Positions 32,276 through 37,309 of a DNA stretch of 64,000 bases are shown here, piece by piece; position 1 is the stretch's first letter; the number at the start of each line of letters is the position of its first letter. Origin of the DNA: Pseudomonadota bacterium. Lineage in GTDB: Bacteria > Pseudomonadota > Alphaproteobacteria > UBA8366. The stretch spans positions 1-64,000 of the forward strand of contig JAYZAS010000006.1 in NCBI GenBank assembly GCA_036339585.1, given 5' to 3'. The position numbers and the translations under genes were made by a program. Under the pieces are notes generated by a model that saw nothing but the letters and a program-made list of their open reading frames with translations, was not told the origin of the DNA and made no database searches.

Positions 32276-32454
32276 CTAACTTTGGGTTGCGAAAATATAT
32301 ACTCTGATAATGGGTGCTTTGCAGGCTCACAAGAAATCATTATCTGATGTGCGTCAATTTATTTACCTTCGAAAGGGTAGAAAAACTTCAAATGTGACTT
32401 ACATCTTATGCTTATGATTTTCCGCATTGAATGGCATTAGGGTTGGAGATTATG

Positions 32455-32916
32455 ATGAAGAAATTTATTGCAAGTCTGACTTTTGTGATAGCTTTAACAG
32501 AGTTTACTAATGCACAAGAGCTACTGACGCCAAACCCTGATATCTCGGCAAAGCGTGTAGTTGAAATACAATTGACAGCGCTCCAACAAAACGACAGCCC
32601 GTCAGTCGATGCCGGCATCGTGCAGACATGGAAGTTCGCCCATCCCGACAATAAAAAGTATACCGGACCGCTTGCACGCTTCGCCGCTATGGTAAAGGGT
32701 CCTTATTATAGAGATATGATAAACCATTCTGAACACACCATAAAGTCAATTGTGACAACTAATCAGTATGCTTTATTCAGGGTGATAATTGTTTCAAAAG
32801 ATAACGTCAGGTCGACGTTTAAATGGGAACTAATGAAAGCAAAAACGGGAACGCTAAACGGGGCATGGATGACTACGTCAGTTTCACCTCCGCTGCGTGC
32901 GGAGGGGTCTGTTTAA
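32455..32916 (+). CDS. Secreted DUF4864-like protein
   Basis: A 153-residue protein with a signal peptide (MKKFIASLTFVIALTEFTNA). The mature part (SAKRVVEIQLTALQQND, then FAHPDNKKYTGPLARFAAMV and GAWMTTSVSPP) follows the pattern of the DUF4864 family as I recall it. These are periplasmic proteins of unknown function with an NTF2-like fold expected. ATG 32455 gives the best spacing (six bases) from GGAG. It is a single gene. Confidence 0.7.
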   Translation: MKKFIASLTFVIALTEFTNAQELLTPNPDISAKRVVEIQLTALQQNDSPSVDAGIVQTWKFAHPDNKKYTGPLARFAAMVKGPYYRDMINHSEHTIKSIVTTNQYALFRVIIVSKDNVRSTFKWELMKAKTGTLNGAWMTTSVSPPLRAEGSV

Positions 32917-32940: not shown

Positions 32941-34311
32941 TCAAACGATAGGAAGTCCATCCTTATTAAATTCGCCAATCCTGCAGGTACCTTCTTCATT
33001 ACCATTACCGTTATAGCGGAAGTACTGCACGTGTGTTGTGGGTAAGCCATAACTCCTTGTTACAGGGTTGCCGTCTTCATCGATTTGGTTTTGCCACATA
33101 TCCATCCACTTTGCGATTTCTGCTCCTTTTAATATCTCCCCTGCCTTATCAGACTTGTGTAAATCCAACGAGGACATCCAAGTGTAATCCTCCTCTGCAT
33201 GATCAAGTAGAATTGCTGAGGATAGCATGCGGTGCCCATACACTCTACATCTACTCTCCTTCTCTTCATCGTTGTTGCTCGTCTTGCTGACGATATCTGT
33301 CAGCCAACTCAGCCAAGGCAGCTTCAAACCAAAGCGATCTTTGAAATGGTTCATTACCGAACCCATCACGTTACAAGCGTCTAAAATACTGGCTCCATCA
33401 TCCTCTTTAGCATCGCATTTCGGCAGTTGCCATTTACCAGCATTGTTTCTAATCAAAAGGATTTTAGCATTACGGTCTTCAATAAGTATCTGTGCTTCCT
33501 CAATGCAGTTGACAGGTTTTTGTTGGATAGCGGCAAATCTGCCATCTCCACGATGATACGGGATCACATGCTTATTACCTGCAGACAGAAAGTCGTGCAC
33601 TGAAGAAGGATAAATTGTTGGGCCGCAGGCAGGAGGAGAAGATTTTGCGTGAAATTTCATATAAAGCCCACACCGATCAGAATTACCATAGTTTGGTCGA
33701 GGCTCATGCCAAAGGAACCCATCCATCAGAACGACATCACCCTTTTTTAATACCGGATCAACTAATTCAATCTGGCTGGGCACTGGAACCTTCGCTGCAT
33801 CAACTTGATGAACGCGACCGTCCGAAGGCAATACAATTGATTTTCGATGGGAACCGGGCGCGACAGTTAAAGGCCCAACGGCTTCGGTATAATCAACGAA
33901 TGGTATAACCGCAAACATCCAATTTATATTCGATCCGACGCATCGCCAGGGTTTATAGTCATAATGGGCCCCACTACCGTTAACGAAAGGCCTATCACCA
34001 ATACCTGCACCGGGAGGCCGCATAATAGACCAGTATTGCGCTAATATGGCAGGCTCACCAAAAAGTTCTTCAACCGCTGCTAAGATGGCTGGATGAGCCA
34101 AGCTAACTTCCGCTATCTCAGGGTGTTTATCTAACACACGTGGACCCATGGAATGTATTCCAGGAGCAGGATACGCTGGGCCTTTATGGAACGTGTCGTA
34201 ATCACCTTTGCAAAATGCTGCACGTATCGGCGTAGACAGACGCTCTACGTCTTGATTGGTCAACACCCCCCTAAGGACATGGAACCCATTTTTCTCAAAA
34301 TCTTCTTTCAT
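32941..34311 (-). CDS. PhyH dioxygenase fused to a Nudix-like domain
   Basis: A 456-residue two-domain protein. The N-terminal part (about 1-265) is a phytanoyl-CoA dioxygenase-like fold: MKEDFEKNGFHVLRGVL, then GSGAHYDYKPWRC with the H-x-D iron ligands, and DGFLWHEPRPNYG with the distal His. The C-terminal part (about 270-420) begins with a Nudix-like strand pattern AQILIEDRNAKILLIR and GKWQLPK, but the catalytic box G-x5-E-x7-REUxEE is not preserved. It is the third gene of an operon with a split TPP decarboxylase. Oxidation of a small acid (sulfonate, phosphonate or alpha-hydroxy acid) is plausible but unproven. Confidence 0.82.
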   Translation of the reverse strand: MKEDFEKNGFHVLRGVLTNQDVERLSTPIRAAFCKGDYDTFHKGPAYPAPGIHSMGPRVLDKHPEIAEVSLAHPAILAAVEELFGEPAILAQYWSIMRPPGAGIGDRPFVNGSGAHYDYKPWRCVGSNINWMFAVIPFVDYTEAVGPLTVAPGSHRKSIVLPSDGRVHQVDAAKVPVPSQIELVDPVLKKGDVVLMDGFLWHEPRPNYGNSDRCGLYMKFHAKSSPPACGPTIYPSSVHDFLSAGNKHVIPYHRGDGRFAAIQQKPVNCIEEAQILIEDRNAKILLIRNNAGKWQLPKCDAKEDDGASILDACNVMGSVMNHFKDRFGLKLPWLSWLTDIVSKTSNNDEEKESRCRVYGHRMLSSAILLDHAEEDYTWMSSLDLHKSDKAGEILKGAEIAKWMDMWQNQIDEDGNPVTRSYGLPTTHVQYFRYNGNGNEEGTCRIGEFNKDGLPIV

Positions 34312-34354
34312 AGCCCCCGCCTTGTTGATTCAATAGTAGCAAACCAAGATACCA

Positions 34355-34951
34355 TTATGGCAACGTTGCCTTACCTATCCCCAATAATGCTGTTCTAAAC
34401 CGGTCCTTCAAATAACTACCACTACTTGATGGAAGGACGAATTTCAGCTTTTCATATTTTATTTTGGCGACAGCCACGACTGGTCCGGGTTCATTAAAGA
34501 GAAAGGATTTAAGGTCTTCAACTTCTTCCAAATTATTAACAGAGCGGACAGATTTGATCCCTGAGGCCTCTGCAATCGCCGCAAGGTCGGTTGGTCCCGC
34601 TGTATGAGTGAATTGAGCACCGGTCTCGCCAAAACGGCTATTATCTAAAACCAAAATAGCTAAATTGGGAGTTGGCTTCCATGCTATGGTTGAGAAAGCA
34701 CCCATACCCATTAACATTTCACCATCACCGGTAATAACTAGGACCCGTCTTTCTTTTTGGGCCTGCGCTAGCCCATAGCCGATCATTGCAGCCCCGCCCA
34801 TAGCTCCCCAAATATACATGTTATGGTCGTGATCGCCCGCTGCCGCCACATCCCAACATGGAGAACCGAGGCCTGCAACAACCGCTAAACCACTTGGACG
34901 CGCATCAAGAAGTGATTTAACGAATGGGCGTCGGGAGATCTCATTCGTCAT
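34355..34951 (-). CDS. TPP decarboxylase beta subunit (ComE/PpD-like)
   Basis: A 198-residue TPP-binding PP domain. It has the cofactor motif GDGEMLMGMGAFSTIAW followed by LVLDNSRFGETG. The first residues (RPFVKSLLDARP, then VVAGLGSPCWD) match the C-terminal half of phosphonopyruvate or sulfopyruvate decarboxylases. It starts at ATG 34951, overlapping the alpha-subunit stop by four bases. The pair should form one active enzyme, with the active site at the interface. The substrate (sulfopyruvate, phosphonopyruvate or another 2-oxo acid) is not separable by eye. Confidence 0.83.
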   Translation of the reverse strand: MTNEISRRPFVKSLLDARPSGLAVVAGLGSPCWDVAAAGDHDHNMYIWGAMGGAAMIGYGLAQAQKERRVLVITGDGEMLMGMGAFSTIAWKPTPNLAILVLDNSRFGETGAQFTHTAGPTDLAAIAEASGIKSVRSVNNLEEVEDLKSFLFNEPGPVVAVAKIKYEKLKFVLPSSSGSYLKDRFRTALLGIGKATLP

Positions 34952-35475
34952 TTAGCCAACTCCCTAAAATCTTTTGCTCCTAAAAGTTCTTGCGACAGCA
35001 AAACCGCGCACAGTTGCTGTGAATCATATGCTAGCCGTGCCATATTCTCCACTGCTGGCGCAACTTGCCCAGGCTCTTCAGCGCGATACAGACGCACCCC
35101 CATAGCTTCCAAGCAAGCCGGCGTTCCCTGCCCCATAGGCACCTGCCACGGGTTAAATTCTCCATATTCACCACGCATCGTAACAATAATAAGAATAGGA
35201 ATACGGCACGTGTTGGGCATTGCGAGGGCATTTATAATGTTTCCTACACCACTTGATTGAAGCAACATTACACCCTTGCGACCTCCAAGCCACGCACCAG
35301 AAAGCATGTGAATACCTTCTTCCTCGCTGGTACACGTTATGCAATCCACCTCATTATCTGCTTCACACATTTCTATCACTTTAGCATGACCTGCATCCGG
35401 TACATGACACACTAAATCAATACCTTGGCGCCTTAACGCCGTGAAGGTCTGTTTCTGCCACACATTATCTTCCAT
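34948..35475 (-). CDS. TPP decarboxylase alpha subunit (ComD/PpD-like)
   Basis: A 175-residue Pyr domain. TCTSEEEGIHMLSGAWLGG carries the Glu that activates the thiazolium ring, followed by QSSGVGNIINAL and RGEYGEFNPWQVPMG, as in sulfopyruvate decarboxylase alpha and phosphonopyruvate decarboxylase N-halves. It is the first gene of the operon; the beta subunit and the PhyH fusion follow. The divergent region toward the type III PKS gene (35476-35714) contains an inverted repeat and both promoters. No PEP mutase or sulfolactate dehydrogenase gene is next to it. Confidence 0.83.
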   Translation of the reverse strand: MEDNVWQKQTFTALRRQGIDLVCHVPDAGHAKVIEMCEADNEVDCITCTSEEEGIHMLSGAWLGGRKGVMLLQSSGVGNIINALAMPNTCRIPILIIVTMRGEYGEFNPWQVPMGQGTPACLEAMGVRLYRAEEPGQVAPAVENMARLAYDSQQLCAVLLSQELLGAKDFRELAK

Positions 35476-35565: not shown

Positions 35566-35714
35566 ACATATTGAATCGTACTGAGTGGTTTTTGAATTAT
35601 ATGAAAAATAGAGCTGTACTGCTTAGTGATAGAAGCATTGCACCCCGGAAAACGATCTTAAAGGTTACAATGCCTTAGTCTATGAGATAACGTTAACACC
35701 TAAAGAATTTGCAT

Positions 35715-36776
35715 ATGCTTCCAACATCTCCCATGTCGTCACCTGCATGCATTTTGTCTTTAACGACTGCCGTACCTAAATACGTAATAGAGCAATCAGA
35801 ATTCGAAGAGTTAGGACGAACTATCTTTAAAGAAAGACCGAGTACTTTTGCACGACTATCAAAAACATATGAAAATGCCGGGATCACTCGTCGCTATTCT
35901 TGCGTGCCAATTGAATGGTACACCACAGCCACTGGCTGGAAAAATCGAACCGAGCTTTTTGTAGAGAATGCTACTACCCTCCTTAATGAGATTGCCATAC
36001 AGGCGCTCCACGATGCTAAACTAAGCCCGGCGGATATAGACGGTATGGTAACAGTCTCATCGACTGGCCTTTCGGTACCTAGCCTCGATGCCTTGTTAAT
36101 GGATAAGATCCCGTTTAGACGCAATATTGAACGCCTTCCCATTTTCGGTCTTGGCTGTGCCGGAGGAATTATGGGCCTGAACCGGGTTTCAGCATTAGCG
36201 CGGGCCGCTCCTGGCAGTAAATGGCTTTTATTGGTTGTAGAACTGTGTGGCCTAACGTTTCGCAGCTCAGACCTATCCAAAAGTAATATTATAGCAACCG
36301 CACTTTTCGGTGACGGTGCAGCAGGTGGAGTCATTTCAACCGATGGTAACAGATATAGATTAATAGCCGGTGGAGAATACTGCTGGCCAAACACCAAAGA
36401 GATTATGGGTTGGACAATAGAAGAAGATGGTTTTGGCGTTCAGTTTAGTCGTGATGTGCCAACGCTTGTACGAAAGAATCTGAGAATCGCTGCCGAAGAA
36501 TTTCTTATGTCAAAACATATATCTCCTTCCTCGATACAGAACTACATATTCCACCCTGGAGGAGCAAAAGTTTTAGATGCTTTGGAAAAAGCATTAAAAC
36601 TGGATAAAACTCGGCTAGCAACTGCTCGCGCTGTCCTAAAAGAATATGGCAATATGTCTGCGCCGACTGTACTCTTTGTTTTAAAGAAATCTATGGAGCG
36701 CGGCCTTAAAGACAAGAGTTTGTTAGGTGCGCTTGGGCCCGGTTTTTCCGCTGGCTTTACAGTTTTGGAGCGATAA
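35715..36776 (+). CDS. Type III polyketide synthase (alkylpyrone/chalcone type)
   Basis: A 353-residue type III PKS. The triad is visible: Cys148 in GLGCAGG, His280 in FHPGGAK and Asn313 in GNMSAPT. It condenses acyl-CoA with malonyl-CoA units into alkylpyrones or resorcinols. ATG 35715 is chosen; ATG 35733 is also possible and neither has a good ribosome-binding site. The ICMT-like gene follows after five bases, as in the BpsA-BpsB (alkylpyrone synthase-methyltransferase) pair, so a methylated alkylpyrone is the likely product. Confidence 0.9.
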   Translation: MLPTSPMSSPACILSLTTAVPKYVIEQSEFEELGRTIFKERPSTFARLSKTYENAGITRRYSCVPIEWYTTATGWKNRTELFVENATTLLNEIAIQALHDAKLSPADIDGMVTVSSTGLSVPSLDALLMDKIPFRRNIERLPIFGLGCAGGIMGLNRVSALARAAPGSKWLLLVVELCGLTFRSSDLSKSNIIATALFGDGAAGGVISTDGNRYRLIAGGEYCWPNTKEIMGWTIEEDGFGVQFSRDVPTLVRKNLRIAAEEFLMSKHISPSSIQNYIFHPGGAKVLDALEKALKLDKTRLATARAVLKEYGNMSAPTVLFVLKKSMERGLKDKSLLGALGPGFSAGFTVLER

Positions 36777-36781
36777 CGAGA

Positions 36782-37309
36782 TTGTCTGTTTTGCATTTAA
36801 TTTTAGTATCTGTAGTGATACTTCGCCTTTTTGAATTAATACATTCCCACAGAAATGCGAAACGTCTCCTCGAAAATGGTGGGGTCGAGTACGGCAGCAA
36901 ACATTATCCATTACTAGTTCTAATTCATGTGAGTTGGTTGATCTCGATTTGGTGGGTTGTTCCATCTGCTACAGAACCGAGTTTAAAGTTACTTTCTGTG
37001 TTCATTCTACTTCAAATATCCAGGTTTTGGATTATCGCAAGTCTCGGCCCCTTTTGGACTACACGAGTTATTTCATCAAATGACTTTCCAATTATCAACC
37101 GGGGGCCATACCGCTTTATGAAACACCCAAATTATTTAGTGGTTTGCGCAGAAATAGCAGTGTTACCGATGGTTTTTGGGGCTTTAGAGATAGCAATAAT
37201 ATTCAGTATTTTAAACGCCGCAGCACTCGCTTGGCGGATTAAAATTGAGGAGAATGCATTGGAAACACGTCGCAATAAGAAGATACCCAATCATTCCGGT
37301 TCATTGTGA
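36782..37309 (+). CDS. ICMT-family methyltransferase (BpsB-like)
   Basis: A 175-residue membrane protein with about four to five helices. The conserved ICMT motif appears as NRGPYRFMKHPNYLVV, which with the C-terminal EENALETRRN binds SAM. In Bacillus the partner of the type III PKS (BpsB) O-methylates alkylpyrones. The start is TTG five bases after the PKS stop, indicating co-translation. Confidence 0.85.
   Translation: MSVLHLILVSVVILRLFELIHSHRNAKRLLENGGVEYGSKHYPLLVLIHVSWLISIWWVVPSATEPSLKLLSVFILLQISRFWIIASLGPFWTTRVISSNDFPIINRGPYRFMKHPNYLVVCAEIAVLPMVFGALEIAIIFSILNAAALAWRIKIEENALETRRNKKIPNHSGSL

Follow-up and report, generated by a model that had tools for sequence, protein, structure and literature searches.

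What does the C-terminal part of an unusual PhyH-family dioxygenase do, and do the decarboxylase genes next to it belong to the same pathway? The question is raised by a locus in contig JAYZAS010000006.1 (assembly GCA_036339585.1) of a marine alphaproteobacterium of the UBA8366 lineage. The whole stretch analysed, here called the window, comprises the first 64,000 nucleotides of this contig, read on the forward strand. On its minus strand, open reading frames (ORFs) for the alpha and beta subunits of a predicted thiamine diphosphate (ThDP)-dependent decarboxylase precede an ORF for a dioxygenase with a C-terminal extension, here called the fusion. A first-pass annotation of the sequence had described this order, with alpha and beta overlapping by four bases, and all three ORFs were found on that strand at the positions it gave. 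Alpha and beta share bases 34948-34951, and 43 bases separate beta from the fusion. Our analyses describe the fusion as a new domain architecture of known parts. Tentatively, and with slightly less than an even chance in our estimate, we read it as a PhyH oxygenase whose box-dead Nudix domain would bind a nucleotide-type group, as a handle or an effector, beside an alpha/beta pair that works independently. The features of the locus are the following:

32941-34311, minus strand: PhyH fusion ORF, encoding a 456-residue protein.
33532..34311, minus strand: PhyH (2-oxoglutarate (2OG)-Fe(II) oxygenase) domain of the fusion, residues 1-260 (PF05721; H116/D118/H202/R213).
33088..33507, minus strand: predicted degenerate Nudix-fold domain of the fusion, residues 269-408, without a Nudix box (hhalign with shuffle control; AlphaFold2 model with Foldseek and VIA-align).
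32941..33087, minus strand: conserved C-terminal tail of the fusion, residues 409-456 plus stop codon (homologue alignment; ratio of nonsynonymous to synonymous substitution rates, dN/dS).
34355-34951, minus strand: putative beta subunit of a split ThDP-dependent decarboxylase, ComE/RhiF-like (PF02775, E 3.9e-15; RhiF chain 9iz3_B, E 3e-11).
34948-35475, minus strand: putative alpha subunit of the split decarboxylase, ComD/RhiE-like (PF02776, E 4.5e-10; RhiE chain 9iz3_A, E 6.7e-10).

The C-terminal domain of the fusion has a predicted Nudix fold

The C-terminal part of the window protein matches no Pfam family, even at an E value of 10, and at the same E value none of 12 members of the fusion family gave a match to PF00293. 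A profile search of the PDB with the domain also returned no match, and when five Nudix proteins of the window's genome served as templates, hhalign gave no significant similarity (probability 0.4%, E 0.17). A profile-profile comparison of the domain with 26 Nudix proteins by hhalign gave a score of 32.0 (P 2.3e-4, probability 44%). Among 200 column shuffles of the domain alignment, which had a mean score of 13.7 and a maximum of 25.0, none reached 32.0, and the reversed alignment scored 21.1 against the same 26 proteins. These templates had been chosen from 34 loci with a regular expression for the Nudix box, eight loci without the motif being dropped; such a box-bearing set favours the detection of genuine Nudix similarity and could bias the register around the box. 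Judged by sequence, the link to the Nudix proteins is weak but real.

The link is clearer by structure, as far as a predicted model allows. The AlphaFold2 model of the domain has a mean predicted local distance difference test (pLDDT) score of 63.7, with values of 80-92 in the best core blocks. Foldseek returned 299 PDB chains for this model at E <= 0.001 (best E 1.6e-7), and the best 50 of these 299 rows were all Nudix-superfamily chains, with a GDP-mannose mannosyl hydrolase first. In VIA-align, Nudix proteins accounted for all 50 of the matches listed (best Z 12.1), with root-mean-square deviations of 3.8 over 136 residues for 1sz3_A and of 2.8 over 123 residues for 8zr8_B. Some of the chains in the Foldseek and VIA-align rows are counted as Nudix-fold proteins by their names. 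The first-pass annotation had stated that the C-terminal 150 residues start like Nudix and had named structure prediction as a check. With Nudix-superfamily chains in all 50 listed rows of both programs, the likeness held; the length did not, the domain being somewhat shorter (about residues 270-408).

The fusion domain shares its predicted fold and its order of strands and helices with the Nudix superfamily (PF00293; GDP-mannose mannosyl hydrolase, DR1025, Dcp2 and RppH), and both have the W.s...L element and the terminal helix. Unlike that superfamily, the fusion domain has neither a Nudix box nor a PF00293 match and is joined to an oxygenase. With an alpha/beta/alpha fold in the model, the fusion is best described as a PhyH domain followed by a degenerate Nudix-fold domain.

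The Nudix box is lost in a domain that remains under selection

We looked for the Nudix box (GX5EX7REUXEEXGU) in 12 homologues, setting the register by the conserved G-L end of the box, and it was present in none of them, as the first-pass annotation had claimed for the window protein. The Arg-Glu pair of the box is missing in 12 of 12 homologues, in all of which the first box Gly is replaced by Ala and the first box Glu by Cys. The first of the two later glutamates (E19 position) is an acidic residue in 11 of the 12. The E20 position is Glu in three, and the later pair reads Glu-Glu in 3/12. These remaining acidic residues, together with the GDP-mannose mannosyl hydrolases that head the Foldseek matches and that use an altered Nudix signature, would fit a domain that is still a hydrolase and uses other residues. 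The loss of the Arg-Glu pair and the two substitutions, without exception among the homologues, speak against it, and we regard continued hydrolysis as very unlikely.

The domain is not decaying. Its dN/dS values of 0.14-0.22, compared with 0.07-0.10 for the PhyH part, show purifying selection (four homologue pairs with estimable dS; a fifth pair was saturated). It contains the invariant stretches ED..A.ILD.CNVMGS and RCRVYGHR; otherwise it diverges faster than PhyH, its identity to the window's domain in other genera being 47-54%. The tail of 48 residues is also strongly conserved (dN/dS 0.10-0.16), with the motif DEDG.PVTRS.G.PT..V.YF.YN.NGN.EGT, and mostly has pLDDT values below 50 in the AlphaFold2 model.

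The main rival to a binding role gives the Nudix-fold domain a structural task in the oxygenase, as a scaffold or for dimerisation, with no small ligand bound. The absence of the box from every homologue agrees with this explanation, and the invariant stretches need not be pocket residues. On the other hand, long, fully invariant stretches within a domain that otherwise diverges faster would resemble a preserved site, and we consider a pure scaffold fairly unlikely.

The oxygenase half has an intact active site

Pfam family PF05721 (PhyH) matches residues 5-213 of the fusion (E 1.1e-14; 55.6 bits against a gathering cut-off of 22). The iron triad H116, D118 and H202 and the 2OG-binding R213 are invariant across an alignment of 14 homologues, one of which lacks the first 64 residues and another the last 20 or so. 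These four residues align with the H, D, H and R of 1-deoxypentalenic acid hydroxylase 2rdn, which we take to be its iron and 2-oxoglutarate residues. With this site intact, the PhyH half is an active-looking Fe(II)/2OG oxygenase by sequence. The fusion thus has in common with 1-deoxypentalenic acid 11-beta-hydroxylase (PDB 2rdn) the fold family and, in register, the H-x-D...H triad and the 2OG Arg. The kinship is remote: 2rdn scored 20.7 bits in the PDB search, and the fusion scored 26.5 with NF045813, whose cut-off is 550. The extra C-terminal region of about 190 residues lies outside the 2rdn match.

The fusion is restricted to two families of one order

The full-length fusion was found in 11 of 43 genomes of the order. 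The count includes G031, in whose assembly stops and a frame change separate the oxygenase part of the gene from the Nudix-like part (G031:C768:2335-3722); either the gene is broken or the assembly is wrong there. Among 385 genomes of the class, a search for the whole fusion returned only the window's own, and so did a search for the C-terminal domain in these and in 299 genomes of the phylum. A plasmid search gave one match, in Streptomyces, to the PhyH part only; relatives of the fusion were not found in the phage search, and none was confirmed among viral contigs. A pattern scan of genome contigs detected 10 loci with 64-88% identity, all of one sequence family. Among these, locus L019, labelled Phycisphaerales, is flanked by the same genes as L020, labelled Rhodospirillaceae, and its label is therefore probably a binning error. 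Within the genomes sampled, only two families, both of the same alphaproteobacterial order, have the fusion.

Genomes G004 and G009, which belong to two genera, carry fusions that are 95% identical (L148 on C73 and L149 on C52, respectively). The neighbours at the alpha/beta address of these two genomes are only 40-74% identical, and the fusion is missing from G005, the sister of G009. The near-identical fusion would be due either to horizontal transfer or to a misbinned contig.

The fusion and the decarboxylase genes are neighbours in one genus

The first-pass annotation had proposed that the three genes form a short pathway for a C3 sulfonate, a phosphonate or a related 2-oxo acid, and had suggested a survey of gene neighbourhoods. 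The fusion adjoins alpha/beta in three of three genomes of the window's genus and in no other fusion locus examined. The fusion was nearby in none of the 20 alpha/beta loci that were fetched (19 from other genomes and the window genome's paralogue; 61 genomes had a beta relative). In two sister genera, represented by G005 and G009 (genus g4) and by G004 (genus g3), alpha/beta is present without the fusion at the chromosomal address that it has in the window, beside MazG and hydroxyisobutyrate-dehydrogenase-like genes. In the window's genus, the fusion on one side and a pair of polyketide synthase (PKS) and ICMT-type methyltransferase genes on the other have been added to alpha/beta. Across 12 fusion loci, notable conserved neighbours were common only within two pairs of genomes, each pair from a single genus (G004/G008 and G025/G031). 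What little else matched between loci consisted of paralogues of 25-37% identity and of short ORFs that overlap the fusion in other reading frames. The survey thus went against the proposed pathway, as the fusion has no constant neighbour outside the genus.

The PKS/ICMT pair lies at 35709-37309 on the plus strand, divergent from alpha, and consists of a type III PKS of the chalcone synthase family (PF00195/PF02797) followed by the ICMT-type methyltransferase (PF04140). Because it adjoins alpha in G002 and the corresponding address in G004, G005 and G009 lacks it, the pair is a genus-level insertion. Its position just upstream of alpha and this distribution are what favour the idea of a genus-specific type III polyketide unit in which the oxygenase acts as a tailoring enzyme. 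However, the pair is on the opposite strand, fusion loci outside the genus have no PKS-like neighbour in common, and PKS and fusion are unassociated in the order (9/11 versus 17/32, p 0.15), and we find a tailoring role highly improbable. On the other flank, a small DUF4864-domain protein (32431-32916, plus strand) is encoded convergently with the fusion and is kept beside it within the genus.

Among the 43 genomes of the order, the fusion co-occurs with beta (p 0.008). This association disappears within the two fusion-holding families, because beta is present there in 11 of 11 fusion genomes and in 10 of 11 fusion-free ones (hand count). Co-occurrence of the fusion with Xsc and with phosphoenolpyruvate (PEP) mutase gave p values of 0.17 and 0.46, respectively. 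The three genes may be co-transcribed in the window's genus. Judging by these comparisons, the arrangement of fusion and alpha/beta appears to be recent and not an ancestral pathway, and alpha/beta look like neighbours of the fusion in one genus rather than lasting partners.

The substrate of the decarboxylase

Pfam assigns TPP_enzyme_C to beta and TPP_enzyme_N to alpha. Beta has the motif GDG at residue 75 and N104, and alpha has E51 at the position expected for the catalytic Glu, a role that is presumed. Given the separate domains, the Glu and the GDG, alpha/beta is a predicted split ThDP-dependent decarboxylase of the RhiEF/ComDE kind. It shares the two-subunit ThDP build, with Glu and GDG in register, with the RhiEF phosphonopyruvate and ComDE sulfopyruvate decarboxylases; unlike them, it lies below the NCBIfam equivalog cut-offs and is without a coenzyme M or rhizocticin context. 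RhiEF and ComDE are reviewed as two-subunit decarboxylases in PMC12141560. PMC12746152 describes LumK/LumL as a heteromeric ThDP decarboxylase with a heterocyclic substrate. Likened to alpha/beta by description and not by sequence, this enzyme shows that two-subunit ThDP decarboxylases reach beyond sulfo- and phosphonopyruvate, so the substrate is not readable from the family.

If alpha/beta were a sulfopyruvate decarboxylase feeding Xsc, the oxygenase would prepare or release a C3 sulfonate. ComD and ComE are indeed the best NCBIfam models (TIGR03845/TIGR03846), but the scores of 128.7 bits for alpha and 123.1 bits for beta are both below the curated cut-offs of 147.95 and 221.5. The window's genome encodes Xsc, and Xsc is found in 16 of 28 beta-bearing genomes of the order versus 3 of the 15 others (Fisher p 0.026, uncorrected for kinship); yet it is lacking in the remaining 12 of the 28 and, as noted above, is not associated with the fusion. 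Moreover, xsc is divergent from sauS (760.5 bits, cut-off 600), which is followed by genes for SucCD-like ligases:

G000:C1:40000-58000 (L145, 8164-13699): xsc/sauS/SucCD-like cluster, resembling the sauSCD kind of sulfoacetate utilisation.

The sauSCD type of sulfoacetate cluster is described in PMC12625764. By analogy with it, the Xsc cluster of the window's genome is of the sulfoacetate type, which needs no sulfopyruvate decarboxylase, and because it is of this kind, Xsc is no pointer to sulfopyruvate. A sulfopyruvate role is possible for alpha/beta alone; as an explanation of the locus, we consider the sulfonate pathway unlikely.

For a phosphonopyruvate decarboxylase of a phosphonate pathway, one can point to RhiEF as the nearest solved structure to alpha/beta, to PEP mutase in 13 of 28 beta-bearing genomes versus 1 of 15 others (p 0.015, again uncorrected for kinship) and to a PEP mutase over the cut-off in the same-genus genome G002. 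The window's genome, which is 100% complete by the tool's estimate, has eight matches to the PEP mutase family, all of them under the cut-off of 319.55 bits (the best scores 138). The phosphonopyruvate decarboxylase model TIGR03297, which describes a fused two-domain protein, gave 68.3 bits for alpha and 104.1 bits for beta against a cut-off of 312.5. This explanation seems to us extremely unlikely. The association of beta with Xsc and PEP mutase is modest and counts for the view of the first-pass annotation. Nevertheless, its three-gene pathway is not borne out: the gene order is found in one genus only, alpha/beta stays below the cut-offs for both decarboxylases, PEP mutase over the cut-off is missing, and Xsc sits beside SauS and SucCD-like ligases.

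The same genome has a second alpha/beta pair, about 40% identical to the first, at about 217.7-218.9 kb of G000:C1 (L071, 7713-8935), near genes that look citrate-lyase-like and TauD-like from their N-termini.

A dead Nudix domain as a putative binding module

In the reading that we prefer, the C-terminal domain was once a Nudix hydrolase and has since lost its metal-binding box. The dead domain would bind either a nucleotide effector or a handle on the substrate of the oxygenase, such as coenzyme A (CoA) or a nucleotide, and it would hold or gate the substrate at the neighbouring iron site. The founding member of the PhyH family acts on a CoA thioester. Alpha/beta would act independently on a 2-oxo acid, as a heteromeric ThDP decarboxylase of the ComDE/RhiEF kind, and its transcription unit and that of the fusion would have come together in this genus, where they are probably co-transcribed.

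A precedent is human TRPM2, whose C-terminal Nudix domain has a dead box and still binds ADP-ribose, according to PMC6461439. As proposed for the fusion, this NUDT9-H domain is a C-terminal, box-dead Nudix domain kept as a ligand-binding module; TRPM2, as described there, is an ion channel with a known ligand, whereas the fusion is an oxygenase and its ligand is putative. Of the first-pass annotation's view that the dead Nudix-like domain is a binding module, the degenerate Nudix fold is supported by the profile comparison and the model, and the binding role is plausible.

Several observations weigh against our reading. The binding role is drawn from a shared fold, and a fold by itself does not reveal a function; the domain could be a scaffold only. 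The model of the domain is of middling quality, with pLDDT values of 49.0 or lower in the four other AlphaFold models, and the full-length AlphaFold2 model of the fusion (14 sequences), with a mean pLDDT of 44.2, does not give the domain packing. As to the independence of alpha/beta, all 11 fusion genomes carry a relative of the pair, and the constant adjacency within the genus, on one strand and, in the window, with a gap of 43 bases, speaks for some connection in function within that genus.

The 2OG oxygenases form a large superfamily that has been studied well, and so do the Nudix proteins. A search of the full-text literature, with subscription papers outside its scope, for descriptions of PhyH, 2OG or Nudix fusions returned none among the papers listed, in agreement with the first-pass annotation, which knew of no described system with such a fusion. 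The fusion is a clean, conserved oddity in an ordinary genomic setting. A more specific possibility, which we consider rather unlikely, is a nucleotide-gated or handle-guided 2OG oxygenase in which a captured dead Nudix domain would read a CoA or nucleotide handle or an ADP-ribose/NAD signal; to our knowledge, no such oxygenase has been described.

These results correct a tempting pathway assignment, as adjacency in one genus does not count here as evidence for a pathway, be it for sulfonates or for phosphonates. If our reading is true, the fusion would show one way in which a small-molecule oxygenase can gain substrate selection or regulation, and it would give the PhyH proteins of marine alphaproteobacteria a testable class of ligands.

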